From the NCBI RefSeq assembly GCF_000702605.1, contig NZ_JNIR01000001.1, forward strand, positions 2,480,001 to 2,544,000: DNA of 64,000 nucleotides. The letters run 5' to 3'. The notes below the pieces were generated by a model that was given only the letters and a program-made list of their open reading frames with translations, was not told the origin of the DNA and did not search any database. This document shows, one piece after another, positions 6,885 through 32,999 of this stretch. Each line of letters begins with the position of its first letter. The first letter of the stretch is position 1. This stretch comes from Exiguobacterium acetylicum DSM 20416. Its GTDB lineage: Bacteria > Bacillota > Bacilli > Exiguobacteriales > Exiguobacteriaceae. Made by a program: the position numbers and the translations under genes.

Positions 6885-7149
6885 CACAGGCCTCCGCAAG
6901 TTGAAAGTCTTTTTCCGTCAATCCGTTTTCATCATGAGTCGTCGCCGCAAGTGTAACGTTTTTATAGTCGATCACGATCCGTGGATGATGATTCAAGTTT
7001 TCAGCGATACTCCCGACTTCCTGTACGAAATCCAGTGCTGCAGGAAACGATGCAAGTGTATAGGTCCGGACGATTTCATCATCCACGACACTCCAATCCT
7101 GCAACCGCTCAAGACGCTCTTCCACTTCATACTCATTCAACCTAGCCAT
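6874..7149 (-). CDS. 4a-hydroxytetrahydrobiopterin (pterin-4a-carbinolamine) dehydratase
   Basis: PhhB/DCoH-family dehydratase, 91 residues. The signature ENLNHHPRIVIDYKNVTL contains the paired active-site His residues, followed by THDENGLTEKDFQLAE. The ATG at 7149 has GGAGGAGAAAGGG before it. The enzyme normally recycles the pterin product of aromatic amino acid hydroxylases, but no hydroxylase is in the window, so an alternative role (for example repair of a pterin by-product) is possible. First gene of the unit with the HmoB-like and YtxH-like genes. Confidence 0.88.
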   Translation of the reverse strand: MARLNEYEVEERLERLQDWSVVDDEIVRTYTLASFPAALDFVQEVGSIAENLNHHPRIVIDYKNVTLAATTHDENGLTEKDFQLAEACDAI

Positions 7150-7240
7150 CCCTTTCTCCTCCTCTACTATCATTTTCGTCCTATACCTTATACCCCATTC
7201 TTTTACTTCTCTATACCTGTTTGTATCCGATTTCTTCCTT

Positions 7241-7268
7241 TTGCCTTCTGTGTGAGATAGAGTACAAT
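7241..7268 (+). promoter_or_regulatory. Candidate sigma-A promoter for pncA-pncB
   Basis: TTGCCT, 16-nt spacer, TACAAT, about 45 nt before the pncA start. Confidence 0.45.
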
Positions 7269-7312
7269 GTGAAAGAGAACACTAATTCAAAATCGGAAAG
7301 GGGCTTACGCAT

Positions 7313-7846
7313 ATGCGCGCTCTGATTGTCATTGATTACACGATCGATTTCGTTGCTGACGAAGGAAAGCTGACTTGTGGAAAACCAGGACAAGCGATTG
7401 AAGATCGAATTGCTACGTTGATGGAGGAGTTTTCAACGGAAGATTACGTCGTCATCGCCAACGATATTCACGAAGAAGGCGATACGTTCCACCCGGAAAC
7501 CGTCCTCTTCCCGCCACACAATATCCGCGGAACACACGGACGCGATTTGTTTGGAAAAGTCGCAGACATGGCCCGGGTCGCCGATCACGTCATCGACAAG
7601 ACGCGTTATAGTGCGTTTGCCGGGACGGACCTCGATTTACGCTTTCGTGAACGCGGTATCCGCGAAGTCCACCTCGTCGGTGTCTGTACGGACATTTGTG
7701 TCCTTCATACAGCTGTCGATGCCTACAATCTCGGGTATCGTATCGTCGTCCATGCTGATGCGGTCGCAAGCTTTAACGCGACGGGTCACGACTGGGCGCT
7801 TACACACTTTAAACAATCGATCGGCGCAGAAGTCGTCGGCGAATAA
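7313..7846 (+). CDS. pncA: Nicotinamidase / isochorismatase-family hydrolase
   Basis: Converts nicotinamide to nicotinate for NAD salvage. The catalytic triad is visible: D8 (VIDYTIDF), K96 (DKTRYSAF) and C129 (GVCTDICVLHT); metal-binding residues come from NDIHEEGDTFH. 177 residues, matching the B. subtilis nicotinamidase PncA in size. The next gene, 18 bp downstream, encodes nicotinate phosphoribosyltransferase, so the pair forms a two-step salvage operon, which raises confidence in the substrate among isochorismatase-fold enzymes. Confidence 0.92.
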   Translation: MRALIVIDYTIDFVADEGKLTCGKPGQAIEDRIATLMEEFSTEDYVVIANDIHEEGDTFHPETVLFPPHNIRGTHGRDLFGKVADMARVADHVIDKTRYSAFAGTDLDLRFRERGIREVHLVGVCTDICVLHTAVDAYNLGYRIVVHADAVASFNATGHDWALTHFKQSIGAEVVGE

Positions 7847-7863
7847 GAAGGGATCTGTCCGTC

Positions 7864-9315
7864 ATGTTACAACGTAATCTTGCACTCCATACCGATCTGT
7901 ACTTACCACGGTGGATGTATATCTATTGGAAAGAAGGACGTCATAATGAACGCGCCGTTTTTGATGTTTACTACCGTTCGAATCCGTTCGCAGGAGGCTA
8001 TGTCGTCTTTGCGGGTCTCGAAAATATCATCGAGTATATTCAAACACTCCGTTTCACGGAAGAAGATATCACGTACTTGCAAGAGATGATCGGCTTCCCG
8101 GATGAGTTCAAGGATGAACTGCGTCAGTTCAAGTTCAATGGCTCAATCTCAAGTGTCAAAGAAGGCGAAATCGTCTTCCCGAACGAACCACTGATTCGGA
8201 TCGAAGCACGAATCTTTGAAGCAAAACTCTTACAGACTGCGATTCTGAACATTGCGAACCACGAATCGCTCATCGCGACGAAATACGCACGTATTCGTCA
8301 ATCGGCTCCCCGTGCGAAGTTCCTCGAAGCTGGTGCTCGTCGCGCGCAAGGAATCGATGCCGCTTACTTCGGAACGCGTGCTTCATACCTGGCTGGTTTT
8401 GACGTCACAAGCCTTGCTTCAGCAGGACGCGACTTCGGTATCCCGTGTGGTGGAACGATGGAGCACGCCGACATTCAATTCCACGATGACGAATTGACGG
8501 CATTTCGGACATTCGCTTCTCATTATCCGGATCAGGCGACATTACTCGTCGATACGTACGATACGCTCAAGAGTGGTCTTCCGAATGCGATCACGGTTGC
8601 GAAAGAACTCCAAGCTAAAGGACATAAACTACGCGGCATCCGAATCGATTCCGGTGACTTATCCTACTTGTCAAAACGTGCCCGCAACATGCTTGACGAA
8701 GCCGGATTCCCGGAAGTCGATATCGTTTTATCGGGTGACCTCGATGAATACGTTATCCAAGACTTGCGCATCCAAGGTGCCCAAGCCAATACGTTCCTCG
8801 TCGGAACACGTGGCATCACGGCCTACGAACAACCGGCTCTTGGGATGGTCTATAAACTAGTCGCGCGTGAAGTAGATGGCGAGCTCGCACCCGTCATTAA
8901 AGTATCCTCGTCAAAAGCCAAGACGACGACGCCTCACATCAAGGAAGTCTATCGCATCATCGATCCGGTGACGGATAAGTTCAAAGGGGACTACGTGACG
9001 TTGATGGACGAAGATCCGTCGACACTTGAAGCTGTCGACCTCATCGACGTCCGGGACCCATCGTTCCGAAATCGCATCGAACAGTTCAAGGTCGAGCGGT
9101 TACTTGAACCAATTTTCAAAGATGGAGAACTGGTCTATACGGTCCCAACGATTGAAGAAAGTCGCCACTTCCACGAAACACAGATCGGTCGTCTCTGGGA
9201 AGAGTACAAACGGCTGCGTTTGCCAGAGATTTATGCTGTCACATTCAGCGATCGTCTCTGGAAGCTCAAACTCGACATGATTCGGGATACCCGCCTGGCG
9301 AGTGGTTTAAAATAA
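7864..9315 (+). CDS. pncB: Nicotinate phosphoribosyltransferase
   Basis: Second step of nicotinamide salvage: nicotinate plus PRPP to nicotinate mononucleotide. 483 residues in the long B. subtilis YueK/PncB form. Recognisable segments are [20 protein letters not shown] near the start, [15 protein letters not shown], and the phosphate-binding core [14 protein letters not shown] to [16 protein letters not shown]. Immediately downstream of pncA with a weak AAGGGAT ribosome site, implying co-transcription. A strong bidirectional terminator follows. Confidence 0.95.
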
Positions 9316-9320
9316 GACAC

Positions 9321-9361
9321 CAAAAAGCGCCGTTCCTCCTCAGGAAGAACGGCGCTTTTTC
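9321..9361. terminator. Bidirectional intrinsic terminator
   Basis: AAAAAGCGCCGTTC paired with GAACGGCGCTTTTT; ends pncB (+) and the small membrane gene at 9362 (-). Confidence 0.9.
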
Positions 9362-9688
9362 TCATGTTAATCCTGCTTCGTTTCCGACAGGTGTCATTTC
9401 TGTTGGCGCTTGTTCCATCTTCTTACGAAAGTACCACGCGAAGCCGAGTGCACCTCCGATGAAGACGATATACGTGATGCGTTGACCGAATTCAGCTAAG
9501 GAATCCGCGTAGAAAATACTGATTAAATGATCACTTCCACTAATGAGTAGCAAACAGGCAATCAGGAGCGCAATGCGATATGCAAGCGTCGGGCGGTCTG
9601 TCGGTTCAGCATGCCAATACATGATGATATGGTGGGCAAGTAGAACGATACCCAGGATTCCTAATATTCCAATGAGTACTTGCGGCAT
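9362..9688 (-). CDS. Small membrane protein of unknown function
   Basis: 108 residues with about three hydrophobic segments (residues 4-22, 37-52 and 68-88), short charged loops and a polar C-terminal tail. Start ATG at 9688 with AGGAGGATCG before it. The pattern recalls YisL-type membrane proteins, but I do not recognise specific motifs. It is transcribed alone, convergent to pncAB and divergent from the YwpF-like gene. Confidence 0.6.
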   Translation of the reverse strand: MPQVLIGILGILGIVLLAHHIIMYWHAEPTDRPTLAYRIALLIACLLLISGSDHLISIFYADSLAEFGQRITYIVFIGGALGFAWYFRKKMEQAPTEMTPVGNEAGLT

Positions 9689-9830
9689 AATGAACGATCC
9701 TCCTGTTTAGTAGTATCTAGTCTTATTTAAACATAGTTCATACGAATTTCGTCAGGAAAAGTTTCCCGTCCCCCATTCCTCACGGTATACTGTAGGAAAA
9801 TCGTAATCGATCAAGGGAGGGCATTTTTTC

Positions 9831-10322
9831 ATGAAAACCTTTAAGTTATGCACGTTACGCATTTTAATGGACGAATCAGGACGTGATACGACGATTCCCG
9901 TCGCCATTCAGGACGGATTGACGGTCAGTACCGAACAGACGGCACAGTGGGTTGCAGAAATCGTCGTTCCTCCGATGGATCAGCCGATCGTCGATGAATT
10001 GTTCACAAAACATTTACGTGCTTTGATTGAAATCACGATCTCACGACCTGATAATGATCCTGCCGCGATGATCGTCACGCCCCTTGAACGGACTGCCTTA
10101 AGCGAACACGTCTCGTATGTCTTCACGGGTAAGATGGTCATGATGAAGAATGATTTATCTGAATCAATCCTACGCGAAGTCGTCGAAGATGGATTCGCTG
10201 GCGAAGAACTCGTCCAAGAATATAAGGATCGTCGTTCGAAGCGCGGCGCGCATATTACGAGCATTGCAAAGGAAACGTTCAAGCAGTATCTAGCAGAACA
10301 CCCGAAAGCGCCAGTCTCTTAA
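9831..10322 (+). CDS. YwpF-like protein
   Basis: 163 residues, soluble. The N terminus MKTFKLCTLRI and the central ALIEITISRPDNDPAAMIV resemble the YwpF family of Bacillales, whose function is unknown. GGGAGGG precedes the ATG. The stop codon overlaps that of the convergent phosphatase gene in a TTAA palindrome (10319-10322), and no intrinsic terminator separates the two, so antisense read-through may occur. Confidence 0.55.
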   Translation: MKTFKLCTLRILMDESGRDTTIPVAIQDGLTVSTEQTAQWVAEIVVPPMDQPIVDELFTKHLRALIEITISRPDNDPAAMIVTPLERTALSEHVSYVFTGKMVMMKNDLSESILREVVEDGFAGEELVQEYKDRRSKRGAHITSIAKETFKQYLAEHPKAPVS

Positions 10323-18394: not shown

Positions 18395-20848
18395 TTAGAT
18401 GAACAAGTTCAGGTTAGCACCATCCGTTGCACCAAGGTAACTCGCGACACCACCGTAATCGATATCATCCAGTAATTCCTCTTTCTTGATGCCCATGATG
18501 TCCATCGACATCGTACAAGCGATCATGCGGACACCCGCTGCTTGTGCTTTTGCCATCATCGTCTCTAGCGCATCGACTTGTTTGTCCTTCATGACTTTTT
18601 TCATCATTTTTTGACCGGCTCCTGCCATGTTCATGTTCGAGAGCGGTAACTCCCCAGCATGCTTTGGCATCATCATGCCCATCATCCGTTCAATGCCTGC
18701 TTTTTCGACTGCCGGTGCGCCTGGTTTTCGAATGATGTTCAAGCCCCAGAACGTAAAGAACATCGTCACTTGTTTCCCCATCGCTTGTGCACCTTGCGCG
18801 ATGACGAAAGACGCAAGTGCTTTATCGAGATCACCACTGAAAACGACCATCGTCGCATCATCCGCTGGATTGACTTGAATCGGAGTTGTAGCCGATGTCT
18901 CTCCTTGCCCTTTTTCAAGCATGACCTCAACGACTCCCTGATTCATCTCCGCTGAATGGACCGTGTGACCTAGTTTTTTCGCCCATGCTTGAACGTCTGG
19001 CAAGAATCCTGGGTCTGACGCCTTGACGAAAATTTGCTCGCCGTCCGTCATCTGATCGATTTTTGTTTTCAGCTCTAAGATTGGACCTGGGCACTGTAAG
19101 CCGCACGTATCGAGCAGCGTCACTTGTTCCGGTGCAGTCTTCGTTGTTGGCTCACGTTTCGTTACCGTCACAGCTGTCTCCTCCTTCGCCTGGCTTCGCG
19201 CTTCTTGATCGCGATGCACGACCGACCATGTTTTGTAGCCGCCGCTTAAGTTTTTCACATCATAACCGTGTTGTTGCAATAGTTGACTCGCGACATATCC
19301 ACGTAATCCGACTTGGCACGTCACATAGATCGTTTGATTTTTCGGCAGATCATCCAACTTCTCACGTAACGTTGGTAACGAGATATTGACCGATCCGGGA
19401 ATCGAACCTAACTCGTTTTCCGATGGTTCACGGACATCGAGTAACAAACCGCCATTTGCGACAATTTCATCGATTTCGTGCCAATGAACGTTCTTACTGT
19501 CACCAAGCACGATGTTCGACGCAATATAACCTGCCATGTTGACTGGATCTTTTGCTGAACTATATGGCGGTGCATATGATAGTTCAAGATCTGGTAAATC
19601 AAGCACTGTCAATCCACCTTTGATCGCTGTCGCGAGGACATCGATCCGTTTCTCAACACCTGTCATACCGATTGCCTGTGCGCCGTAAATCGTTCCTTCG
19701 ATCGGATCAAACAACAGCTTCATCGAAATCGGACTCGCTCCTGGGTAATACCCCGCATGCGATCCCGGATGGAGATGAACCGCTTCATAACGTAGACCGA
19801 GCTGGCGTAACCGTTTTTCGTTGTTACCAGTCGAAGCGACCGTCAAGTCGAAGACTTTTGCGACCGCTGTTCCGAGCGTGCCGCTGTAACGGACGTCGCG
19901 TCCAGCGATGATGTCAGCAACGAGGCGTCCTTGACGGTTTGCTGGCCATGCGAGCGGGACGTGTGTCGCTTCCTTCGTGATATAATCTTTGACTTCAATC
20001 GCGTCGCCAATCGCAAAGATTGATGGATCGGATGTCCGCAGTTGATCGTCGACTTGAATCGTCTGTTTGATGCCAAGCGTTAAACCAGCATCTGCTGCGA
20101 GCGTGCTCTCCGGTGCAACACCAATCGATAGGATGTTCATCTCGGTTTCGATCACGCGTCCACTTGTCAGGACGATGCGGCGACCTGCCTCTTCAAAACG
20201 AGCGACGCCATCTTCTAGAATCAACTCGACGCCTTTCGCACGAAGATGTTCATGAACGATTGCTGCCATTTCTGGGTCGACCGGAGCCATGACTTGATCC
20301 GCCATCTCGACGAGGGTGACGTGCGCCCCACGTTCGACGAGGTTTTCTGCCATTTCAAGACCGATGAATCCTCCACCGATGACGACTGCTCGCTCTGGAC
20401 GCGTCGTATCAACGTATTCCCGCATCCGGTCTGTATCTGGAATGTTCCGTAATGTAAAGACGTTCGTTGCTTCTTCAAGTCCTGGAATGTTTGGACGAAT
20501 CGGTTTTGCGCCTGGAGAAAGAATCAGATGGTCGTACGATTCATCGTATTCTTCACCCGTTTCGACGTTGCGGATCGTGACCGTCTTCGCTTCACGGTTA
20601 ATCCGAATCGCTTCCGACAAATTACGGACATCTAAATTAAACCGTGCGTGCATGCCTTCGGGCGTTTGGACGAGTAATTTATTGCGATCCTTGATAACGT
20701 CTCCGATGTAGTAAGGCAGTCCACAGTTCGCGAACGAAATCTCTTTTCCCCGTTCAAGCAAAATGATTTCTGCCGTTTCGTCAATCCGCCGCAGTCGTGC
20801 TGCTGCCGTAGCGCCACCTGCGACGCCACCTACGATGATCGTTTTCAT
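18395..20848 (-). CDS. CoA-disulfide reductase - rhodanese - TusA - DsrE2 fusion (persulfide handling)
   Basis: 817-residue cytoplasmic fusion. Domains in order: FAD/NAD(P)H CoA-disulfide reductase (1 to about 445; GGVAGGATAAARL and redox C42 in SFANCGLPYY); rhodanese (about 455-545, active CQVGLR); TusA (about 590-660, CGLQCPGP); DsrE2-like domain (about 675-817, Cys in MIACTMSMDIMG). Together they could reduce CoA persulfides and relay sulfane sulfur between Cys residues. The ATG at 20848 has AAGGAGGAATCATCAG; the frame runs to 20881 but without a ribosome site. The promoter spacer contains a CsoR/CstR-like operator, consistent with induction by persulfide stress. Confidence 0.9.
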   Translation of the reverse strand: MKTIIVGGVAGGATAAARLRRIDETAEIILLERGKEISFANCGLPYYIGDVIKDRNKLLVQTPEGMHARFNLDVRNLSEAIRINREAKTVTIRNVETGEEYDESYDHLILSPGAKPIRPNIPGLEEATNVFTLRNIPDTDRMREYVDTTRPERAVVIGGGFIGLEMAENLVERGAHVTLVEMADQVMAPVDPEMAAIVHEHLRAKGVELILEDGVARFEEAGRRIVLTSGRVIETEMNILSIGVAPESTLAADAGLTLGIKQTIQVDDQLRTSDPSIFAIGDAIEVKDYITKEATHVPLAWPANRQGRLVADIIAGRDVRYSGTLGTAVAKVFDLTVASTGNNEKRLRQLGLRYEAVHLHPGSHAGYYPGASPISMKLLFDPIEGTIYGAQAIGMTGVEKRIDVLATAIKGGLTVLDLPDLELSYAPPYSSAKDPVNMAGYIASNIVLGDSKNVHWHEIDEIVANGGLLLDVREPSENELGSIPGSVNISLPTLREKLDDLPKNQTIYVTCQVGLRGYVASQLLQQHGYDVKNLSGGYKTWSVVHRDQEARSQAKEETAVTVTKREPTTKTAPEQVTLLDTCGLQCPGPILELKTKIDQMTDGEQIFVKASDPGFLPDVQAWAKKLGHTVHSAEMNQGVVEVMLEKGQGETSATTPIQVNPADDATMVVFSGDLDKALASFVIAQGAQAMGKQVTMFFTFWGLNIIRKPGAPAVEKAGIERMMGMMMPKHAGELPLSNMNMAGAGQKMMKKVMKDKQVDALETMMAKAQAAGVRMIACTMSMDIMGIKKEELLDDIDYGGVASYLGATDGANLNLFI

Positions 20849-20883
20849 CTGATGATTCCTCCTTGAGTTTCTATCTGTCACCT

Positions 20884-21586: not shown

Positions 21587-21624
21587 AAAACGGCTTTGGA
21601 GCCCTGCTCCGAAGCCGTTTTTTT
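21587..21624 (+). terminator. Intrinsic terminator
   Basis: CGGCTTTGGAGC / GCTCCGAAGCCG then T7, isolating the YbjN gene from the iron operon promoter. Confidence 0.88.
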
Positions 21625-21637
21625 CTTTAAAGTTCAA

Positions 21638-21666
21638 TTGACAATGAGAATTATTCTCGCTATAGT
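21638..21666 (+). promoter_or_regulatory. Sigma-A promoter of the iron/glycosylation operon
   Basis: TTGACA, exactly 17-nt spacer, TATAGT. The spacer is almost entirely the Fur box. Confidence 0.85.
21640..21658. promoter_or_regulatory. Fur box
   Basis: GACAATGAGAATTATTCTC matches the classical Fur box GATAATGATAATCATTATC at 15 of 19 positions and sits between -35 and -10, so Fe-Fur would block RNA polymerase. It predicts induction of the whole downstream operon under iron limitation. Confidence 0.85.
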
Positions 21667-21731
21667 TAGATTTGTGAAAACGACTACATGACGGAAAACG
21701 TCTTATTAATTCTTCTGGGGGAATCACGGTT

Positions 21732-22916
21732 ATGAAAAAACGTTTAAAAGTAGCTTCTATCTTCATGGTAGCTGGTATCTTGGCTGCCTGCGGTTCGAAT
21801 GAAACGGATACGACTGCACCGAAAAAAGAGAAAACGGAACAGTCGACCGAAACAAAATCAGCAGATGCGGGGATTGCTGCAACGACACTGACAGATGAAT
21901 TGACGATCTTCAGCTCAATCAAAACAGAACTCGACAAAGCAAAAGAAGGACAAACAATCGATTGGAAGATGGTCACGACAAGTTATGAATCGAAACTAAA
22001 AGGTGGTGTCGAGACGACAGCACCAGAAATCGAACAAGTCATCCAGTCTGCTTTAGCAGGTGTGGAAGCAAAGGATCTCGATGAGAACATCGCTCGTCAA
22101 CTCGTTGATAAAGGTCTACAATCGTATTTCTATAAATTACAAAAAGCAACACAAGCAAAAGCCGAAGAAGCACTCGTCGCCGGTAAACCAGAAGCTGCAA
22201 CAGAAGCACTTAAGGATATCGAAGCAATGGCGAAGACTGTCTTCATCCCGACTGCAGAAAAACGCGACGCGAGTTACGGCTTCAAAAACGAAGACGCCAT
22301 CGCTCAAGCGATCACATCAGGTCTTGCAGCGCAGCAAGAAGCCATCGATGCGAAAGAAATCGGTGACTTCAACGTCGCCAAACAAGTGACAGATAAATCA
22401 ATTTATCGTTCCTTCTATTTAGCTGCACTCGGTTACGCACAAAAAATCGAGGATGGAGCAAAAGCAGGTACGGATGAAAAAGAATTACAAATGGAGCAAG
22501 CAGAAGGATATGGTTTCCTCCTTGCGATCGAAGAATCATTAGCAGGCGGAGACGAAGAAGCTGTCAAAACGCTGAAAGAGCGCTATGATTTCTCAAAAAC
22601 AAAGCCAGCTGACGTCTCTTACAAAGAAATCGAAGGATTGTTCGCAAAAGCGTTGACGGAAAAAGTCGACGGTTATCATGAAGAGGCACAAGAAGCGATC
22701 GAGAAGAAAGACGTCGATACAGCACGTGTAGAAGCAATGGAAGCGAACATGTTCGTCGTTGCGATGAAACCGACGCTTGAGAACCGTCTCGGTAAAGAAA
22801 AAGCAGCACAAGTCGCAAAAGACGCAAACGAATGGTTCGCACTCGTCGAAAAAGGTGACGTCAAGGCTGAAACGACAGGCGAACGGATCACAGACGCACT
22901 CGAACCACTTAACTAA
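21732..22916 (+). CDS. Repeat-containing surface lipoprotein of the FTR1 operon
   Basis: 394 residues. Lipobox LAAC near residue 20, then a low-complexity Thr/Glu/Lys linker (to about 50), then an all-helical acidic body. At least three related units can be seen, each with A..A..(D/E)...A spacing: KAEEALVAGKPEAATEALKD, QEAIDAKEIGDFNVAKQVTD and EAQEAIEKKDVDTARVEAM. I do not recognise a named family. As first gene behind a Fur-controlled promoter and in the same operon as an FTR1 permease, it is probably an extracellular iron-binding or iron-delivering partner, analogous in position to EfeO/EfeM, though no EfeO motif is evident. Confidence 0.75.
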   Translation: MKKRLKVASIFMVAGILAACGSNETDTTAPKKEKTEQSTETKSADAGIAATTLTDELTIFSSIKTELDKAKEGQTIDWKMVTTSYESKLKGGVETTAPEIEQVIQSALAGVEAKDLDENIARQLVDKGLQSYFYKLQKATQAKAEEALVAGKPEAATEALKDIEAMAKTVFIPTAEKRDASYGFKNEDAIAQAITSGLAAQQEAIDAKEIGDFNVAKQVTDKSIYRSFYLAALGYAQKIEDGAKAGTDEKELQMEQAEGYGFLLAIEESLAGGDEEAVKTLKERYDFSKTKPADVSYKEIEGLFAKALTEKVDGYHEEAQEAIEKKDVDTARVEAMEANMFVVAMKPTLENRLGKEKAAQVAKDANEWFALVEKGDVKAETTGERITDALEPLN

Positions 22917-22942
22917 GAAGGAAATGGAAACGGAGGGATAAG

Positions 22943-23854
22943 ATGAATATCGGAATCACAGGAGGTGCCGGCTTCATTGGCGCCGCCCTCGCCCTCCGGC
23001 TCCAGCAGCAACATACCGTCCATGTACTTGATGCTTTCACGGACTACTATGATGTCCAGTTAAAAGAAGAACGAGCAGCTGAATTAAGACGTGCCGGCGT
23101 TACCGTTACGACGGGTGACGTTCATCATGATCTCGACACCTGGATGGAGACATCGTTCGACGCTGTCTTCCATCTCGCAGCACTGCCTGGTGTTCCTCGT
23201 TCGCTCGAAGAACCGCATCACTATATTCGTGAGGACATCGATATGACGGTGACCTTGTTAGAAGCCGCAAAAAGACATGGCACGCCGCATGTCTTTTTCG
23301 CGTCTTCTTCTTCCGTTTATGGGGAACAGACTGGTCCGCTAAAAGAAGATCAGGCAACGGGACACGTCGCTAGTCCTTATGCGGCAGCCAAGTATAGTGC
23401 CGAAAGCTTTTGTCATGCTTATGCTCATTTATATGATTTAAACGTGACGCTGTTTCGCTTCTTTACTGTCTATGGTCCTTCGGGTCGTCCCGACATGGCA
23501 CTGTTTCGTTTCATTGAACAGGCACTACGCGGAGAACCACTTATCGTCTTTGGTGATCCGATCCGTGATTTCACGTATATCGATGACATCACCCGCGGAA
23601 TGGAACAGGCGTTACTGGCTCGTGCAGTCGGAACGTATAACCTCGGCGCGAATCAGCCGGTCTCCGTTCGCACTCTAGCTGAACGGATTGGTCAACGGTT
23701 TGATGTGCCTGTGCAGACTCAAACTGCACGACGCGGGGACGTGACGATGACATGGAGTGATACGACGGCTGCAAAAGAAGCATTCGGTTACCAACCGTCA
23801 ATCGAGATCGATGTTGGACTGGAGCAGGTGATTTCGTGGCATCAAAACCGCTAA
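22943..23854 (+). CDS. NAD-dependent nucleotide-sugar epimerase (UDP-glucuronate 4-epimerase-like)
   Basis: 303-residue extended SDR. NAD site GITGGAGFIGAAL, catalytic FFASSSSVYG and Y(148-ish)xxxK in SPYAAAKYSAE. The segment RFFTVYGPSGRPDMALF and IRDFTYIDDI is the signature seen in UDP-glucuronate 4-epimerases (GAE/LspL), rather than GalE or RmlB, so UDP-galacturonate is a reasonable product. CGGAGGGATAAG precedes the ATG, 27 bp after the lipoprotein gene; the 3' end overlaps the next gene by 19 bp. It would supply the sugar donor for the glycosyltransferases downstream. Confidence 0.82.
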   Translation: MNIGITGGAGFIGAALALRLQQQHTVHVLDAFTDYYDVQLKEERAAELRRAGVTVTTGDVHHDLDTWMETSFDAVFHLAALPGVPRSLEEPHHYIREDIDMTVTLLEAAKRHGTPHVFFASSSSVYGEQTGPLKEDQATGHVASPYAAAKYSAESFCHAYAHLYDLNVTLFRFFTVYGPSGRPDMALFRFIEQALRGEPLIVFGDPIRDFTYIDDITRGMEQALLARAVGTYNLGANQPVSVRTLAERIGQRFDVPVQTQTARRGDVTMTWSDTTAAKEAFGYQPSIEIDVGLEQVISWHQNR

Positions 23855-24690
23855 TCCGAACGCTTCTTTATCTGACACTTACCGGACTCGTTATCTTTTT
23901 ACTGCTCCGTTTTTTCTTGGAGTTACCGGTCTCTTATCGGTATATCGAAGCTTTATTCAAGAGTCCCTGGACGATCCTTGCGACCTTGACGTATGCGATT
24001 GCCTTTTATTTACGGGCGGTCGCCTGGCGCCGCGCTGACTCAAAACGTGCACCGACCGCTGTATACCTGTCGAGCCTGTATCTCGGACTGACGATCAATC
24101 ACCTCTCACCAGTCAAACTGGGAGAGATGATCCGACTCGTGACGGCGAGAGCTGTCGGAAGTCCCTGGAAGCAGACGAGCGCGATCTTCGTCTTACAACG
24201 AAGTATTGACTTGATCGTTCTGTGTACCTTCATTTTGATCGGTTGGTTGTTTCATCCGATCGTTTTGCTCGTTGCGCTCCTTGCCACCGCGTTATTGCTC
24301 GTGTTACGTCGACATGTCCCGCATCTCCCATCGCTCGTCCTGTTCGGAACGTTCGCTTGGGCCGTCGAGGCACTCGCCGTCTTCCTCCTCTTGCAAGGAG
24401 CAGGTGTCGATGTGTCCTTTCCAACGACATTGATCGCCATGAGTGCCGGTGTCCTGTCCGGTGTGATCCAGTTCACGCCGGGTGGACTCGGTACGTACGA
24501 ACTCGCGATGGGTACAGTGTTACGGCAAGCCGGTGTTGCCCATGCGTACGACGTTGCCTTGATGACGCACTTCTTTAAATATGCCTTTGCTTTTCTTATT
24601 CCGCTGTACGTTTTAACGCGGCATCCGGCTACGCTTCGGTTGTTGGTTCGTCAGCTCAAATACACTGATTGGAAAGGAGGAAGACGATGA
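23836..24690 (+). CDS. Flippase-like membrane protein (UPF0104 / LPG-synthase-TM family)
   Basis: 284 residues, about 7-8 membrane helices. The family motifs NHLSPVKLGEMIR, RSIDLIVL and PGGLGTYE are present, as in the membrane half of lysylphosphatidylglycerol synthases and AglD-type proteins. Starts with GTG at 23836, preceded by GGAGCAGGTGATTTC, overlapping the epimerase gene. Such proteins are found in lipid-linked sugar pathways and may translocate a polyprenyl-phosphate or glycolipid. It lacks the soluble aminoacyl-transfer domain of MprF, so lysinylation is unlikely. Confidence 0.8.
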   Translation: MASKPLIRTLLYLTLTGLVIFLLLRFFLELPVSYRYIEALFKSPWTILATLTYAIAFYLRAVAWRRADSKRAPTAVYLSSLYLGLTINHLSPVKLGEMIRLVTARAVGSPWKQTSAIFVLQRSIDLIVLCTFILIGWLFHPIVLLVALLATALLLVLRRHVPHLPSLVLFGTFAWAVEALAVFLLLQGAGVDVSFPTTLIAMSAGVLSGVIQFTPGGLGTYELAMGTVLRQAGVAHAYDVALMTHFFKYAFAFLIPLYVLTRHPATLRLLVRQLKYTDWKGGRR

Positions 24691-26123
24691 AAAGTGCTTC
24701 TCGCTTTGAAAAAGTCGCAGCACGCGCCTGGAACTTACTCAATGAAGGAAAACCCTTCACACCCATTTTTACGATCGGCGTCTTCTTGACGTACGCCTTA
24801 TGGACGCAGATGCCACTCGCAGAAGCTGGTCTTGGTTTCATCGTGACGCTTCCTTTATTCATCTTGCTTTGGCGTTATGACTTTCCGTTATTTTTACGAA
24901 ACTACCTCTGGATTCCAGTCATCGTTTGGCTGTTCCTTCGGGGTACGAATGTGGATTATTTGCCTTTATTCGCCTATGGTGCGGGTCTCTATTTCTTCTT
25001 CACCGTCTTTTTCTGGGGAACGATCTATTATCATCTCCGAATCGGAACACGTTGGACGAATTTCACGCGTTTTTGGAAACTCGTCTTGAAGAATAGCGAT
25101 TCAACGAGTGGTAACGCACAAGAGCAATTGCCTAAGGTTGCCCTGTTGCTCATGTACTGGTGGACGGCAAGTGACGCATCGTCGCTCGACATGACATTCG
25201 TCTGGTTCCCACTCGGACTGTTCGTCTTTGCATGGATCCTACATCACTATCTGTTCGACTGGAAACCGAAATTGCCCGAGGCAATGACGGCAGATGCCAA
25301 TCTTCCGACTTCAGAAAAAGTTTACGTCCTGATTGTCGACGGGATGCGTAAAGATCGCTACATGGCAGCAAACACGCCGTTTCTCGAACGATTGCGTCAG
25401 GAAGGAACGGAATATACGAATATGGAGACTGTCTACCCTGCCCGGACTGTCGTCTGCTTCAGTTCGATGTTCACGGGTGCTCGCCCGGAAGATCACGGCA
25501 TTCATTCGAACATGGTCTGGAACACGACCGGCGTTAAAACAGATACCGTCTTCGACCGTCTCCGTGCCGTCGATAAATCAGGAAAAATCCTTGGCATCGC
25601 ACACCTTGTCGATGCGTTCGGTTCAACCGACGTACGGACCGTCACGGCGGTCATGCATAACGATGTCGCGGATCGAAATATCGTAGAACGTGCTAAACAA
25701 ATCGTTCATGAAGAGGATCCGGATTTACTGGCGATCCAGCTGATCGGAACGGATCAAACGGGACATAGTCGAGGCACCCTCTATTCCGAGTATGTCGAAA
25801 AAATCGAGGAAGCGGATGCGCTCCTTGCCGAGTTTTGTGAGGAACTCGATCGCCTTGGTAAACTCGAGGATGCGACACTCATCGTCATGGCGGATCACGG
25901 TCAAGCGGACGGGATCGGTGGACACGGTCACTTGGATGAAGGCGAACGGTTCGTTCCGTTCTGGATGTATGGTAAGAACGTTCATGCTGGTCTGAAAGTG
26001 GATACGCACCGCCATATCTTGTCACTCGGACCAACGATCACAAAAGTCCTAGGGGCAGACATCCCGTACGATAGCCGTGGTGTGCTGTTGACAGAAGCGT
26101 TCAAGGAGGCGAAGTCTAAATGA
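24687..26123 (+). CDS. Membrane-anchored alkaline-phosphatase-superfamily phosphodiesterase
   Basis: 478 residues from the ATG at 24687 (overlapping the previous stop as ATGA, behind AAAGGAGGAAGACG). About five to six N-terminal membrane helices (residues 20-200) precede a type I phosphodiesterase/nucleotide pyrophosphatase domain: metal Asp in VLIVDGMRKDRY, nucleophile Thr in YPARTVVCFSSMFTG, then GTDQTGHS and MADHGQADGIGGHGH metal ligands. The catalytic domain may face outward, acting on a lipid-linked phosphodiester or transferring a phospho-head group; the actual substrate is unknown. Confidence 0.82.
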   Translation: MKSASRFEKVAARAWNLLNEGKPFTPIFTIGVFLTYALWTQMPLAEAGLGFIVTLPLFILLWRYDFPLFLRNYLWIPVIVWLFLRGTNVDYLPLFAYGAGLYFFFTVFFWGTIYYHLRIGTRWTNFTRFWKLVLKNSDSTSGNAQEQLPKVALLLMYWWTASDASSLDMTFVWFPLGLFVFAWILHHYLFDWKPKLPEAMTADANLPTSEKVYVLIVDGMRKDRYMAANTPFLERLRQEGTEYTNMETVYPARTVVCFSSMFTGARPEDHGIHSNMVWNTTGVKTDTVFDRLRAVDKSGKILGIAHLVDAFGSTDVRTVTAVMHNDVADRNIVERAKQIVHEEDPDLLAIQLIGTDQTGHSRGTLYSEYVEKIEEADALLAEFCEELDRLGKLEDATLIVMADHGQADGIGGHGHLDEGERFVPFWMYGKNVHAGLKVDTHRHILSLGPTITKVLGADIPYDSRGVLLTEAFKEAKSK

Positions 26124-26848
26124 AGATCATCGTCTTTTTACCGGCCCACAATGAGGAAGTGTCACTCCCGCTCGTCTTAAAACGAATCCCGGATATGATT
26201 GACGGCATTCCCGTCGAGATCCTCGTCATCGACGATGGCTCAGTGGATACGACGAGTACGATCGCGCGTCAACACGGCGCACATGTCTATCGGTTCGAGC
26301 AGAATCAAGGACTCGGCGCTGCAGTCCGGGAAGGACTCCGCCAGTCCTACGAACTCGGCGCTGATGTTGCTGTCATGATTGATGCCGATAACGAATATCC
26401 GGCCGATCAAATTCCGGATATCGTCCGACCGATCTTACACGATCAAGCCGACTACGTATTCGGTTCCCGCTTCCTCGGTACCGTAGACGGGATGCGGCTC
26501 TATCGCTATATCGGTAATCATGTCTTCACGTGGTTGCAATGCCTTTTATTGAAACGTAAAATCCATGATGGTCAAAGTGGAATGCGTGCTTTTTCACGCG
26601 CAGCGTGTCACCATGCTGAGATCATTCACGATTATAACTATGCCCAAGTCTTAACTCTCAATCTCGTCCGAAAAGGCTTCCGCCTTCACGAAGTCCCGAT
26701 CCGTTATCGGGTCCGGGAAGCAGGAAAGTCTTTTATCCGTCTGAATTATGTCCAACGTGTCCTCCCAGCGATTTACCGGGAGTGGCGACGACCGATCACA
26801 CAGCTTAGCGTTGAAGAACGCATGGAACGAAAGGAGCACCTCGGATGA
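26120..26848 (+). CDS. GT2 family glycosyltransferase (polyprenyl-phosphate sugar synthase-like)
   Basis: 242 residues. GT-A fold with FLPAHNEEVSLPLVL, VIDDGSVDTT, the DxD-type MIDADNEYPADQ and HDGQSGMRAFSR acceptor loop, the pattern of dolichyl/undecaprenyl-phosphate glycosyltransferases (DPM1-like). No C-terminal membrane segments, so it is a peripheral enzyme. ATGA overlaps with both neighbours. It would load a sugar from a nucleotide donor onto undecaprenyl phosphate for later use by the GT-C-like enzyme at the operon's end. Confidence 0.87.
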   Translation: MKIIVFLPAHNEEVSLPLVLKRIPDMIDGIPVEILVIDDGSVDTTSTIARQHGAHVYRFEQNQGLGAAVREGLRQSYELGADVAVMIDADNEYPADQIPDIVRPILHDQADYVFGSRFLGTVDGMRLYRYIGNHVFTWLQCLLLKRKIHDGQSGMRAFSRAACHHAEIIHDYNYAQVLTLNLVRKGFRLHEVPIRYRVREAGKSFIRLNYVQRVLPAIYREWRRPITQLSVEERMERKEHLG

Positions 26849-27579
26849 AACGCCTTCTCTTGCTACCGCTCCTCCTACTCTCACTGTTCGTGAGCACTTC
26901 CACGGTTTCTGCTTATAGTTACGGAGACCCAGGAAAGGAAGCTTTTGCGGAAGCGTATAAACAATTTGAAGAACAACTCGATGCCAAGGATTATGCGCTT
27001 GCGAAAGAGACGCTTGCCGCCTATGATAAAGAATTCAAACTGTATTTCCCTGAAGCGAAAGCGAAGATCGACACGGCTCTCGAACAAGAAGATGCCGAGG
27101 CTGCAAAGCAAGCGTATCGTGTCGCTCTCCGTCAAAATATCGAACGTCGCCTGCACTTTGCTGAAGAGCAGTTCGAGGACTTCGGTCAAGCGAAACTCTT
27201 ACTCGCGAAAGCCCGTGGCACGTATGATGTGCTCGCACCTTACGTAAAGGAAAGCAAGGATGCACAAACATCCGATGACGTGTATACTGCATTTGATGAA
27301 TCATTAAAGGCACTCGGAAATCCTGGTCTGTTTGGGGTCGGGAAAAAAGCGAGTGATGAAGAATCCTTCAAGAAAAACATTACGATGATCGAAGATACGT
27401 TGACGCCTCTTTTCGTCCTGCCGGGTGAAGAAAAAACAGGCGTCTTCACGGAAGAAGACTCCTTCCTCGGTCAAACGTTCGGAACGGACGCGATTTGGAA
27501 ATTGATTGCGCTCGGACTCGTCGTTGTACTCATCGTCATCGTCGTCATTGGTCAATGGAAGAAGAAACGCCGCTCATAA
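26845..27579 (+). CDS. Secreted helical protein with C-terminal membrane anchor (FTR1 partner)
   Basis: 244 residues: signal peptide (1 to about 24, cleavage near VSAYSYG), an acidic helical ectodomain rich in Glu/Lys/Ala, then one membrane helix (about 217-236) and a short basic tail QWKKKRRS. Topology is therefore outside-facing and C-terminally anchored. The gene sits directly before the FTR1 gene, 12 bp apart, so it may take the place of the extracellular N-terminal domain found in long FTR1 proteins. Not recognised by sequence. ATGA overlap with the glycosyltransferase gene. Confidence 0.75.
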   Translation: MKRLLLLPLLLLSLFVSTSTVSAYSYGDPGKEAFAEAYKQFEEQLDAKDYALAKETLAAYDKEFKLYFPEAKAKIDTALEQEDAEAAKQAYRVALRQNIERRLHFAEEQFEDFGQAKLLLAKARGTYDVLAPYVKESKDAQTSDDVYTAFDESLKALGNPGLFGVGKKASDEESFKKNITMIEDTLTPLFVLPGEEKTGVFTEEDSFLGQTFGTDAIWKLIALGLVVVLIVIVVIGQWKKKRRS

Positions 27580-27591
27580 GGAGGAAGACAG

Positions 27592-28509
27592 ATGGATTTT
27601 CAAGCGTTTTTGATTACACTTCGGGAGTGTCTCGAGGCTGTTCTCATCGTTGGGTTGATCTTAGGTTATCTCGATCGATTGAACGCTCCACAATATAAAA
27701 AGTGGGTCTACGCAGGTGTCGGGTTGGCACTTCTCGCTAGCCTTGGTGTCGCGTTCCTGTTCCAAGTCGTCTTTACGAGTTTTGCGAGCTTCGGAAGCGA
27801 TACGTATCTCCGTCTCGGCATCATGATGGTCTCCGTCCTGCTCTTGACACACATGGTCCTCTGGATGGGGAAGGAAGCGAAAGAGAATCAAAAAGCCTCC
27901 CAAGCGAAGGTCGCCGCTGCCGTCTCGACGGGTAGTGCCATCACGATGATCATCCACTCCTTCCTCGTCATCGTTCGAGAAGGAATTGAGACAGTCTTCT
28001 TCTTCGCTGCCATCTCAGGTGGGGAAATCGAAAAAGTCCTGACGAGTTACGGTGCGGTTTCCGGTCTGTTACTCGCCTTGATCTTCGGATACTTATTCGT
28101 TTCCGGCTCAATGAAGATTCCCGTCAAACGCTTCTTCCAAGTAACGGGCGTATTGATTCTCTTCATCGCAGCCGGCATGCTCGTCCAAACGATCGGACGC
28201 TTCCAAGATCTTGGTTTGCTCGGTAGTCTCTTGATGAATGCTGACGGCACACCAGCTGCTGTGTATAACATCGTCGGCTTCATGCCGGAGCACTACATCG
28301 ATCAGGTGCAATACTTGCGCGATACCGGGAATTCGACGTTGATCAGTGGACAGATCGGAACGTTCATGGGCGCGATGTTCGGATACAGCCATAACCCATC
28401 GCTCGAACAAGTCGTCGCTTGGTGGGGCTATTTCGCCTTTGCTGGTTGGATGTTGCTCCGTCAAAACAAACCATCGAAGTCATCGAAGTCCTTACAGGAG
28501 GTTTCTTGA
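27592..28509 (+). CDS. FTR1-family iron permease
   Basis: 305 residues, seven predicted helices, the short form without an extracellular N-terminal domain. Both REXXE iron-binding motifs are present: RECLE at residues 11-15 and REGIE at 129-133. Relatives (EfeU/YwbL, yeast Ftr1) move iron across the membrane with an oxidase or a periplasmic partner. The usual EfeO and EfeB genes are missing; instead this operon has two unrecognised extracellular proteins and glycosylation enzymes. AAGGAGGAAGACAG precedes the ATG. Fur control comes from the promoter at 21638. Confidence 0.93.
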   Translation: MDFQAFLITLRECLEAVLIVGLILGYLDRLNAPQYKKWVYAGVGLALLASLGVAFLFQVVFTSFASFGSDTYLRLGIMMVSVLLLTHMVLWMGKEAKENQKASQAKVAAAVSTGSAITMIIHSFLVIVREGIETVFFFAAISGGEIEKVLTSYGAVSGLLLALIFGYLFVSGSMKIPVKRFFQVTGVLILFIAAGMLVQTIGRFQDLGLLGSLLMNADGTPAAVYNIVGFMPEHYIDQVQYLRDTGNSTLISGQIGTFMGAMFGYSHNPSLEQVVAWWGYFAFAGWMLLRQNKPSKSSKSLQEVS

Positions 28510-29882
28510 CCGTCCGAAGCGATCGTTCACGTCCGCGTGGACGATCGCTTTTTTGGATCACGTTGCTATTCATCGGTGGCTGGATCAGTTTGCGGATTGC
28601 CTACGTCAGTCCATTCATCGCGAGCTACGATATCGCGAACTTCACGCTCGCTGTGACTGATTATGATTTGGCTGATTTACGCCCGCATTTTCCGGGTTAT
28701 CCTTTTTTCATCTTATTTGCCAATCTGTTTCTGCCACTGATGATACCTGTCAAAGCACTTGGACTCGTCTCCACATTAGGACTGGCAAGTGCCCTCTTGC
28801 CACTCTATTGGCTGTTCCGCCGTCATGCGTATGATACGACGCGGCTGATCGCTACCTTTACCGTTCTCTCCACTGCCTCACTCGTGACGTTCGCTGCAAC
28901 CGGGATGTCAGATGGACTCGCCCTCGGACTACTCGTCTGGTACGGCTGGAGCATCGAACGCGCCCGACATCAGATTCGTCGCTGGCTTCCGTATCTTCTG
29001 TTCGGTTTACTGATGGCGACTCGACTGTCCTATGCGCCGTTTGGTTTTATGTTGCTTGTCTTGCTGTGGCAAGTACGAAAGGATTACTGGCAACTCTTAT
29101 CCGAATGTGCGCTCCTTGTTCTGGCGCAACTGGCTTGGTTGCTCCCGGTCGCCTTTTCCGTCGGTGGACCCTATTCGTTTCTTCAACTGTCACTCCGTTT
29201 CGTCAGCGGTCATTTTTCCGATTGGGGTGGTTCTGCTCAGACCGATGATGCATCCATCCTCCAACGATTCGTTCAAACACTTCAGCAACTCTTCTGGCAT
29301 GGGATCGGTTATGGCACGTGGATTGGACTAGTGTCTGGACTGCTGCTGTTTTTACGGAAACGTTGGACAGTCGATGTCGCTTGGGGAGCGACGGCTGGAC
29401 TCTATTTCGTCTGGGTCTGGCTCGGACAAAACATCGATAAACCCCGTCATGTCTTACCGCTTGTCCTATTGCTACTCATCTGGTTGATCCGTCAGCTTCC
29501 GTTACAGATGTATCTACCATTTTTAGTCGTTCAGTTGACGATCGGTAGCCTCGCGTTGAACGATCAAGCCACGCGTCCCCCGGCGACGATTGAACTGGCG
29601 CGTTACGTAGCGACTCTTCCAATCGGCGCGACAGTCTTTACCGACGAGGAAGCTCGCCAATTCCAGTCCGAACGACCGGATGCCGCGATCGTTCCGATCG
29701 GATCAATCAGTAAATGGAACGCAGAACCAAAATCCGATCAGAGTTACGTGACCGGTCGATTGCTCGAGCGCTTCCACGCTCAAGGCGTGCGACCAAACGT
29801 CAAACAAATCGTTCGCTTCACGAGTGATGCCCGCTACGAACCGGAAGACGCGCAAGCGATGCTGTATCAACTAACGCCTTGA
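28506..29882 (+). CDS. Polytopic membrane glycosyltransferase (GT-C / ArnT-PMT-like)
   Basis: 458 residues from a TTG at 28506 that overlaps the FTR1 stop (TTGA) and follows AGGAGG with 4 nt between; an ATG 87 nt upstream lies inside FTR1 and has no such site. About 10-11 membrane helices and a short soluble C-terminal domain. The first outer loop (YVSPFIASYDIANFTLAV...) carries acidic residues where GT-C enzymes have their catalytic Asp/Glu. It probably transfers sugar from a polyprenyl-phosphate carrier to an outside acceptor. Family is inferred from topology and context. Confidence 0.7.
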   Translation: MTVRSDRSRPRGRSLFWITLLFIGGWISLRIAYVSPFIASYDIANFTLAVTDYDLADLRPHFPGYPFFILFANLFLPLMIPVKALGLVSTLGLASALLPLYWLFRRHAYDTTRLIATFTVLSTASLVTFAATGMSDGLALGLLVWYGWSIERARHQIRRWLPYLLFGLLMATRLSYAPFGFMLLVLLWQVRKDYWQLLSECALLVLAQLAWLLPVAFSVGGPYSFLQLSLRFVSGHFSDWGGSAQTDDASILQRFVQTLQQLFWHGIGYGTWIGLVSGLLLFLRKRWTVDVAWGATAGLYFVWVWLGQNIDKPRHVLPLVLLLLIWLIRQLPLQMYLPFLVVQLTIGSLALNDQATRPPATIELARYVATLPIGATVFTDEEARQFQSERPDAAIVPIGSISKWNAEPKSDQSYVTGRLLERFHAQGVRPNVKQIVRFTSDARYEPEDAQAMLYQLTP

Positions 29883-29903
29883 TGACACAACTGCATGCAT
29901 ACG

Positions 29904-29958
29904 AAAAACCATGTCGATTCCCGAATGACACCGTGGGGATCGACATGGTTTTTTTTCA
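29904..29958. terminator. Bidirectional terminator ending the iron operon
   Basis: CCATGTCGATtCCC paired with GGGgATCGACATGG, A run before, T8 after; also serves the acetyltransferase gene on the minus strand. Confidence 0.9.
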
Positions 29959-31649: not shown

Positions 31650-32999
31650 ATGAAAGTAGCAGTCATCGGATGTACACACGCAGGAACAGCAGCAGTCAAA
31701 GAACTCGCTTCACAACAAGACGTCGAGATCACCGTTTATGAGCGGAATGACAATGTATCGTTTCTCTCTTGTGGAATCGCGCTTCACGTCGGTGGTGTCG
31801 TCAAACATGCGGAATCACTTTTCTACTCATCACCAAGTGAACTCGCTGAACTCGGCGCTAAGATGCGTCTGAAACATGATGTGCTTGAAATCGATAGTGA
31901 ACGCCAAACGATCGTTGCGAAAAACCTCATGACTGGTGAAGTCGTTCACGATACGTACGATAAACTCATCATGACGACAGGATCATGGCCAATCATTCCG
32001 ATGCTTCCTGGCATCGAGTTGAATCAAATCGAGCTTTGTAAAAACTATCACCACGCTCAAACAATCATTGAAAAAGCGACAGATGCACAACGGATCACCG
32101 TCGTTGGTGCAGGATATATTGGTGCTGAACTCGTTGAAGCGTTTGAAGCATACGGAAAAGACGTCACGTTCATCGACAGTGCGGATCGCATTCTCAACAA
32201 ATACCTCGACCGCTCATTCACTGACGTCATCGAACGTGAATTGACAGACCGCGGTATTCGCCTCGAACTCGGACAAACCGTCCAAAGCTTCAAAGGAGAA
32301 AACGGTGCTGTGACACACGTCGTGACAGACAAAGGAACGTTCGAAACGGATCTCGTCATTCTCTGTGTCGGTTTCCGCCCAAGTACGGAACTCTTAAAAG
32401 GTCAAGTCGACATGCTACCGAACGGTGCCATCATCGTTGACGATTACATGCGGACGAGCAACCCGAACATCTTTGCTGCTGGTGACAGCTGTGCTGTCTA
32501 TTACAATCCAGCTCGGACACATGCCTATATCCCGCTGGCAACAAATGCTGTCCGGATGGGAACATTGATCGGTAAAAACTTACGCGCACCAAAGATTCGT
32601 TACCAAGGAACACAAGGCACATCAGGTCTTCGCCTATATGATTTGAACATCGCGTCGACTGGTTTGACAGAAGAAGCGGCACCCTTGTTCGGACTTGAAG
32701 TGAGCAGCACGACGGTCACAGATGCGTATCGCCCAGAGTTCATGCCAACAGCAGAAGACGTCCAATTGAAACTCGTCTTCGAGACGGAAACTCATCGTGT
32801 CGTCGGTGCACAAATTATCTCGAAAGTGGATTTGACACAAGCGATGAATACACTTTCTGTCGCGATTCAAAATGATATGACACTTGAAGAGCTCGCTTTC
32901 GTCGACTTCTTCTTCCAACCGCACTACAACAAACCGTGGAACTTGCTGAACCAAGCAGCTCTACAAGCGATGAACGAGCGCCAATCTGCTCGTGTTTAA
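31650..32999 (+). CDS. nox: Water-forming NADH oxidase (Nox2 type)
   Basis: 449-residue flavoprotein. FAD site MKVAVIGCTHAGTAAVKEL, single redox-active C41 in VSFLSCGIAL, NAD site VVGAGYIGAELVEAF, FAD site FAAGDSC. Close to streptococcal/lactic H2O-forming NADH oxidases, which use one Cys as sulfenate; CoA-disulfide reductase is a sister family, but the SFLSCGIAL context favours Nox. It regenerates NAD+ with O2. The Rex/FNR-like palindrome between promoter and gene suggests redox control. AAAGGAGACTTTACCC precedes the ATG. Confidence 0.85.
   Translation: MKVAVIGCTHAGTAAVKELASQQDVEITVYERNDNVSFLSCGIALHVGGVVKHAESLFYSSPSELAELGAKMRLKHDVLEIDSERQTIVAKNLMTGEVVHDTYDKLIMTTGSWPIIPMLPGIELNQIELCKNYHHAQTIIEKATDAQRITVVGAGYIGAELVEAFEAYGKDVTFIDSADRILNKYLDRSFTDVIERELTDRGIRLELGQTVQSFKGENGAVTHVVTDKGTFETDLVILCVGFRPSTELLKGQVDMLPNGAIIVDDYMRTSNPNIFAAGDSCAVYYNPARTHAYIPLATNAVRMGTLIGKNLRAPKIRYQGTQGTSGLRLYDLNIASTGLTEEAAPLFGLEVSSTTVTDAYRPEFMPTAEDVQLKLVFETETHRVVGAQIISKVDLTQAMNTLSVAIQNDMTLEELAFVDFFFQPHYNKPWNLLNQAALQAMNERQSARV

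Follow-up and report, generated by a model that had tools for sequence, protein, structure and literature searches.

In the EfeUOB and FepABC systems, an FTR1 iron permease is accompanied by EfeO or EfeM and by the DyP peroxidase EfeB, and in the FTR1-P19 and Fet3-type systems its partner is P19 or a multicopper oxidase. How bacterial FTR1 permeases get their iron is poorly understood, and an excerpt of PMC9174327 (PMC, PubMed Central) calls the role of EfeO/M unclear. Here we analyze a window of 64,000 nucleotides from the 3.28-Mb genome of Exiguobacterium acetylicum DSM 20416 (positions 2480001-2544000 of contig C1) and describe in it a predicted eight-gene operon, A to H, in which an FTR1 permease (G) has wholly different partners, namely two helical extracellular proteins (A and F) and a putative transmembrane glycosylation pathway (B, C, D, E and H). 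No FTR1-glycosylation locus was described among the matches listed for the open-access PMC literature, as judged by title and abstract opening.

The operon shares with EfeUOB and FepABC an FTR1 permease with RExxE motifs, an extracytoplasmic helical partner and, as predicted, Fur-type control. It differs from them in having neither a DyP peroxidase nor an above-threshold M75 domain, in its two other helical proteins and its glycosylation pathway, and in its FTR1, which belongs to a separate clade with an extra segment; an Efe-type set is present besides in the same genome. The partners of the FTR1-P19 and Fet3-type permeases, P19 and a multicopper oxidase, are likewise not among the eight proteins.

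In the rhizobial polyprenyl-phosphate galacturonate pathway (LpsL, RgtE, RgtA-D), an epimerase acting on uridine diphosphate (UDP)-glucuronate, a family 2 glycosyltransferase (GT2) like dolichol-phosphate mannose synthase and GT-C enzymes for galacturonate are combined much as here, although the host is Gram-negative and the acceptor is lipid A/core; we know of no link of that pathway to iron. The CsbB-GtcA-YfhO, GtlA-GtcA-GtlB and GtsABC systems are also similar, each with a GT-A enzyme for a polyprenyl-phosphate sugar, a putative flippase and a PMT_2-type GT-C enzyme. Such systems decorate Gram-positive wall polymers (PMC8035078, in excerpt). In the present operon, however, the flippase-like protein belongs to PF03706 and not to GtrA or Wzx, and the phosphodiesterase D, a likely uronate, predicted Fur-type control and the tie to FTR1 set it further apart. 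Lastly, Algp7 of Sphingomonas sp. A1, an EfeO-like protein of an Efe-type operon, has been reported to bind metal and the polyuronate alginate (excerpts of PMC9174327 and PMC3143127), although the excerpt of PMC3143127 questions any link of alginate binding to iron uptake.

Organization of the operon

The eight genes occupy positions 21732-29882 of the plus strand and stand behind one promoter between two terminators:

21587..21621, plus strand: intrinsic terminator of the upstream gene (16 pairs, then a T run), the left boundary
21638..21666, plus strand: sigma-70-type promoter TTGACA-17-TATAGT
21645..21659, plus strand: Fur-like box TGAGAATTATTCTCG, inside the promoter spacer
21732..22916, plus strand: A, lipoprotein with an all-helical extracellular domain, a distant profile match to F
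22943..23854, plus strand: B, UDP-glucuronate 4-epimerase-like enzyme (Pfam Epimerase), residues aligned with the Bacillus cereus enzyme
23836..24690, plus strand: C, PF03706 flippase-like membrane protein (Pfam LPG_synthase_TM)
24687..26123, plus strand: D, membrane protein with a type I phosphodiesterase domain (PF01663, Phosphodiest), metal-site-like residues conserved
26120..26848, plus strand: E, GT2 protein like dolichyl/polyprenyl-phosphate sugar synthases (Pfam Glycos_transf_2), no transmembrane segment called
26845..27579, plus strand: F, secreted helical domain with a C-terminal transmembrane anchor, resemblance to EfeO/EfeM (M75) weak
27592..28509, plus strand: G, FTR1 permease of the short form, with a pair of RExxE motifs and a segment missing from the six long FTR1s compared
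28506..29882, plus strand: H, GT-C-type membrane glycosyltransferase with a TTG start, PMT_2/TMEM260-like via its relatives
29903..29954, plus strand: strong terminator hairpin 3' of H (-31.1 kcal/mol, z -6.4), the right boundary

Gaps of 26 bp (A/B) and 12 bp (F/G) separate two pairs of genes, and the other five junctions overlap, B/C by 19 bp and C/D, D/E, E/F and G/H by 4 bp each. An eight-gene set that joins an iron permease to glycosylation genes and has the layout of an operon is thus confirmed: a sequence-only reading had described one promoter with a Fur box in its spacer ahead of eight tightly joined genes, and all eight open reading frames (ORFs), the box and the junctions were found as described. 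Among the eight proteins, Pfam families above cut-off were found for B, C, D, E and G, and none for the window copies of A, F and H. The same reading had noted that EfeO/EfeB, P19 and a multicopper oxidase are absent here, and Pfam gave no EfeB (DyP peroxidase), P19 or multicopper-oxidase family among the eight proteins. Elsewhere on C1, at about 1138001-1141712 (6502-10213 of locus L058), an M75 EfeO, a Dyp-type peroxidase and a long FTR1 of 582 amino acids lie in a row, and the genome therefore carries two FTR1 systems.

Co-inheritance of the permease and its partners

Within the genus, the short FTR1 was found at an identity of at least 90% in 16 of the 18 relatives searched, and in all 16 loci fetched the eight genes keep both their order and their flanking neighbours; 18 genomes of the sister genus gave no match. 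Beyond the genus, genome contigs were scanned and the best 80 of 204 relatives were kept, a choice that favours near relatives. The gene labels in these loci rest on ORFs chosen by length, and genes were lost in some of them (L048, L103, L107, L110 and L125 have no called FTR1). The order ABCDEFGH occurs in 35 of the 70 non-genus loci with a called FTR1 (Bacillaceae and kin) and CDEHFAG in 14 (Paenibacillus), and other orders include ABCDEFHG (Tepidibacillus and Vulcanibacillus), ADEFGH (Chengkuizengella) and, in one Cohnella, AFHGDE followed by B. Adjacent cluster genes on the same strand lie within 30 bp of each other in 439 of 607 pairs, as counted from longest-ORF starts with congener repeats included.

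The wider distribution was taken from 299 genomes of the class, searched for FTR1, A, D, F and H. The short FTR1 clade is present in 48 of them (E 2.3e-126 or better), two weak FTR1 matches (G111, 7.5e-47; G245, 5e-42) having been set apart before counting, and it spans 26 of the 118 genera and 17 families; 13 of these genomes are Exiguobacterium and the other 35 are spread across 16 further families. F, H and A were each found in 49 of the 299 genomes and D in 52. Every genome with the short FTR1 has F, D and H (D is in two fragments in G100) and 46 have A; within 12 kb of the permease lie F and H in 44 genomes each, and D and A in 41 each. Of the other 251 genomes, just one (G114) has F and a fragment of H, which lie where a 4.7-kb contig ends, and D is represented by four distant forms (1.3e-121 to 2.3e-128, set apart before counting) and by no close one; A occurs without the clade in G002, G085 and G114. 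These counts argue strongly that the short FTR1 is inherited together with A, D, F and H.

The set is broken up into two to four pieces in eight genomes (G058, G059, G165, G194, G304, G129, G091 and G146). When each called start was scanned from 150 bp before it to 200 bp inside it, a Fur-like box of at least 12/14 was found for 20 of the 21 pieces, wholly 5' of the called start in 16, straddling it in three, and inside a called ORF with an uncertain true start in one. Boxed pieces without FTR1 are F-H-B-C-D-E (G058), F-H-D-E (G059), H-D-E (G165), H-C-D-E (G194), C-D-E (G129) and B-C-D-E (G304). Because the split sets stay in the same genome and nearly all of their pieces are boxed, the permease and the glycosylation genes do not behave as independent units. 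The boxes at the starts of physically separate pieces also make the best case that control of the sugar genes by iron has probably been selected, rather than arising as a by-product of position. The sequence-only reading is supported here: it had suggested a search for co-occurrence of the eight families around short FTR1 genes, which D, F and H show throughout, and had inferred that iron starvation turns on both iron and sugar genes, as the boxes of the split pieces suggest, and the pattern it had named as contrary, independently conserved units, was not seen in the class sample.

Natural loss gives a complementary view. In the congeners G002 (L169/L200) and G018 (L201), B to H are gone and A is kept at 84-85% identity, a scar of the end of H stands before the old terminator, and the promoter and box of A have decayed alike; a single shared event is probable. 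The loss of B to H together with a decayed A promoter fits a dependence of A on the rest of the set.

Promoter and Fur-like boxes

The promoter matches the consensus at 11 of 12 positions and is the best of 16 promoter-like matches in the stretch scanned; shuffled sequence gave 10.7 (standard deviation 3.3), and such matches taken alone are therefore weak evidence. The promoter with the box in its spacer is kept in all 17 congeneric loci printed, the window included, with small changes in L044. The window box, TGAGAATTATTCTCG, agrees with the consensus at 11 of 14 bases, and six of seven positions in it are palindromic. It is one of 23 sites in its own genome that match the pattern TGADAATNATTHTCA with at most one mismatch, compared with four for the reversed pattern. 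Among the genes in the loci read around 15 of the 23 sites are one of the FUR family, one for a flavodoxin and three for Peripla_BP_2 lipoproteins, and at some of these 15 sites no evident iron gene adjoins. A further site lies about 55 bp 5' of the point at which the M75 EfeO gene is called to start.

Across loci, the window included, a box of at least 11/14 precedes the first cluster gene in 73 of 93 cases, compared with 38 of 1006 other genes. The 93 loci include 26 of Exiguobacterium, nine of which repeat genomes already counted, and the fairer figure is 51 of 67 outside that genus, some of these 67 being closely related to each other. The count over the 93 loci missed boxes where the ORF start had been called too early (L038, L041 and repeats), in which the box was seen on direct reading; the control genes include neighbours that may be Fur targets, and 24 of them reach 12/14. 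In some loci of Bacillaceae, another Fur-like box stands 5' of F. A conserved Fur-type box in the promoter is as expected of a member of the Fur regulon, and the operon is accordingly predicted to be under iron control.

By eye, response-regulator-like and histidine-kinase-like genes were seen near the cluster in Paenibacillus loci L098, L104, L105, L106, L111 and L112, with Fur-like boxes near them in L104, L105, L106 and L112.

The permease and the two helical proteins

G carries the FTR1 domain (PF03239, E 1.3e-39) and two RExxE motifs, whose residues R11, E12 and E15 and R129, E130 and E133 are invariant in all seven sequences. Its score with the NCBIfam EfeU equivalog model is 174.2 bits, below the cut-off of 255, which indicates a related protein and not an EfeU equivalog. 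Relative to six long FTR1s, G has extra stretches at about residues 212-270, in which E233, H234, D237, R243 and D244 are invariant among the seven short forms; these stretches could be a docking or iron site of the short-FTR1 clade.

Both A and F are all-helical in confident AlphaFold2 models, with a mean pLDDT (predicted local distance difference test) of 88.8 for A and 89.1 for F. Foldseek with F placed EfeM, Algp7 and EfeO at ranks 2-5, with probabilities of 0.6-0.9 but E values of 0.2-1.1, and M75 is the commonest weak Pfam match among relatives of F (6 of 39, best E 0.0052). The HxxE motif of M75 proteins occurs somewhere in 24 of the 39 F proteins and does not form a column. Algp7, for its part, is a true M75 protein, and its host assimilates alginate. 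The best Foldseek match of A has E 0.089, and its VIA-align rows are ordinary helical bundles. Sequence searches of solved structures with profiles of A, F and H gave no convincing relative, the best for A (E 0.005) covering only the signal and linker.

The profiles of A and F match each other (hhalign, 94.9% probability, E 4.5e-8), which may reflect real kinship or an effect of helical composition. We considered F as a detached N-terminal domain of the long FTR1s and found no support, the match to a long-FTR1 profile of only six rows having a probability of 26% over 28 columns (0.4% for A). Ser/Thr richness of the linker of A as a sign of O-glycosylation was also rejected, the content being not significantly above that of the linkers of other lipobox proteins (43 versus 27, p = 0.11).

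The glycosylation proteins and the likely sugar

The closest solved structure to B is 5u4q, labelled dTDP-glucose 4,6-dehydratase and also bearing an SSSSVYG motif. The second best is 6zl6, which with 6zld, 6zlj and 6zll belongs to the UDP-glucuronate 4-epimerase structures used in PMC11519531, and S127 and Arg185 of the B. cereus enzyme are named in PMC11519531 and PMC12338863 (both in excerpt). By eye on 6zl6, Ser122-Ser123-Ser124, the Tyr/Lys pair, a Thr and Arg182 of B align with the B. cereus enzyme, and B is likely to act as a UDP-glucuronate 4-epimerase-like enzyme. Beyond the equivalents of S127 and Arg185, we take the Ser and Thr residues to line a pocket for the carboxylate and the Tyr/Lys pair to be catalytic.

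E has dolichol-phosphate mannose synthase (5mlz, E 3e-17, residues 1-222) as its best solved relative and matches AglJ-like models below cut-off; by this similarity alone, it reads as a GT-A enzyme for a polyprenyl-phosphate sugar. C belongs to PF03706 and not to the GtrA- or Wzx-type flippases. The window copy of H has only a sub-threshold TMEM260 match (E 0.03), and its assignment to GT-C comes through its relatives, which match PMT_2 in 11 of 18 (best 1.3e-8) and TMEM260-like models in 5 of 18 (best 2.5e-9), with Asp42 invariant. D has four membrane stretches in a simple hydropathy scan and conserves D218, D356, H360, D403, H404, H413 and H415, with T254 invariant; we take these residues to be metal ligands and a nucleophile of the nucleotide-pyrophosphatase type. 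In the draft genome of Bacillus coahuilensis m4-4 (L078, 3112-4538), three overlapping ORFs carry the label of D, either through a sequencing error or through a real lesion.

When the neighbours of 75 loci were clustered without bias, the one pathway gene to emerge besides housekeeping genes was of the UDP-glucose dehydrogenase family. This gene adjoins the cluster in 23 loci and lies one gene off in another (24 of 75 in total, 22 on the same strand); a copy three genes away in L047 was excluded. Eleven of the 24 products have 434-475 amino acids and 13, all from Paenibacillus, have 251-287. The gene is adjacent in 9 of 32 further loci, two of which repeat L099 and L135, and it stands 3' of the split operons H-D-E (G165) and H-C-D-E (G194). 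Since UDP-glucose dehydrogenase recurs beside the cluster and B keeps the UDP-glucuronate 4-epimerase residues, a uronic sugar is likely, with a route from UDP-glucose through UDP-glucuronate to UDP-galacturonate by the dehydrogenase and B. The uronic acid guessed at in the sequence-only reading has thereby gained support.

Outside the subject of the operon, two pyridine nucleotide-disulphide oxidoreductases are encoded on either side of the region (18395-20881 and 31650-32999), of which the first is a fusion with rhodanese, TusA and DsrE-like domains.

Discussion

We think it rather probable that these genes form one Fur-controlled iron-acquisition system, found in many families of Bacillales, in which FTR1 and its helical partners act with transmembrane glycosylation and a uronic decoration holds Fe(III). 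The UDP-glucose dehydrogenase that many loci have next to the cluster would convert UDP-glucose to UDP-glucuronate, which B would convert to UDP-galacturonate. E would put the uronate on polyprenyl phosphate, and C would flip the resulting donor across the membrane. Outside, H would transfer the uronic sugar to a surface acceptor, which may be a glycan (of the wall or of a lipid) or the proteins A and F. Under iron scarcity the acceptor would thus be decorated with uronic acids, and Fe(III) would be held near A and F, which would pass it to G. D, acting outside the membrane, would most likely cleave or transfer a phosphate-linked group, perhaps freeing the lipid carrier. Enzymes thought to free the carrier from lipid-linked sugars are described for Bacillus subtilis (PMC11898649, in excerpt); they are cytoplasmic and belong to other families than D. 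The donor, the outward transfer by H, the acceptor, the reaction of D and the link to Fe(III) are the parts of this scheme that we infer.

Several observations weigh against this scheme. The resemblance of F to EfeO is weak by its Foldseek E values, and HxxE is not a conserved column in the 39 F proteins, no His being among the polar columns conserved at 93% or more. The VIA-align rows for F are generic helical bundles, and EfeM and EfeO are absent among the 50 rows shown, which neither proves nor disproves kinship; a resemblance found weakly by two methods (Foldseek and Pfam) and not by the third should be taken as a lead rather than as proof. For A, no family or fold is recognised, and the Ser/Thr content of its linker is unexceptional. 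Two of the 24 dehydrogenase genes lie on the opposite strand, one of them a gene away, and the Paenibacillus enzymes are short, the one scanned having two of the usual domains. B, labelled in 42 of the 70 non-genus loci, and C, labelled in 59 (each from a large family), leave room for a sugar step that differs or is provided from elsewhere. The B-C-D-E piece of G091 has no box. Finally, four genomes have a lone distant D-like protein with no FTR1-set neighbours and no 12/14 box (L196, L197, L198 and L199).

Protein glycosylation only is a possible explanation, to which we give clearly less credence: H would modify A and F for folding, stability or iron loading, and there would be no iron-holding glycan, so that it overlaps the proposed scheme as a sub-case. 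The PMT_2 and TMEM260-like models that match relatives of H are named for protein O-mannosylation, A and F are co-inherited with the set, and no chain-polymerase match was found among the eight genes. On the other hand, the A linker gives no sign of it, and Gram-positive PMT_2-type GT-C enzymes are reported to decorate lipoteichoic acid and wall polymers (PMC8035078, in excerpt).

The same excerpt, in which GT-A/flippase/GT-C sets decorate wall polymers, together with the Fur-like boxes of the glycosylation-only pieces, would suit a remodelling of the envelope under iron starvation, with Fur control in common with FTR1 and no role in uptake. We regard this as unlikely, because such a stress response should also exist without the permease, and the 251 class genomes without the FTR1 clade have no close D and only one F with an H fragment, at a contig end. 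That the permease moves another metal, or mainly supplies metal for D, which belongs to a metalloenzyme family, is very improbable given the FTR1 motifs of G and the occurrence of the same type of box 5' of FUR, flavodoxin, EfeO and Peripla_BP_2 genes in the genome. Chance or inherited synteny of unrelated genes is scarcely credible: many Bacillaceae loci do lie, by eye, at one conserved place (trxA/etf-like genes before, uvrC/lysC-like genes after) and gene order is identical in the 16 congeneric loci, but elsewhere the order is shuffled and the set dispersed, yet content and boxes persist, and neither L046 nor L047 showed the flanking genes of the window next to the set.

Returning to the scheme of iron uptake joined to surface glycosylation, we tentatively propose, as a bolder form of it, a siderophore-independent uptake in which a surface-bound uronic-acid glycan or glycoprotein is a fixed trap for Fe(III), and EfeO-like A and F feed a dedicated FTR1. 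The coupling of FTR1-type iron uptake to a putative pathway of transmembrane glycosylation is a new combination, and it suggests functions for A and F. Whether a surface glycan takes part in iron import becomes a question that can be tested directly, gene by gene. In many bacteria of the Bacillus order, an iron-import channel and probable enzymes of sugar-acid decoration, apparently under common iron control, suggest an undescribed way of gathering iron.

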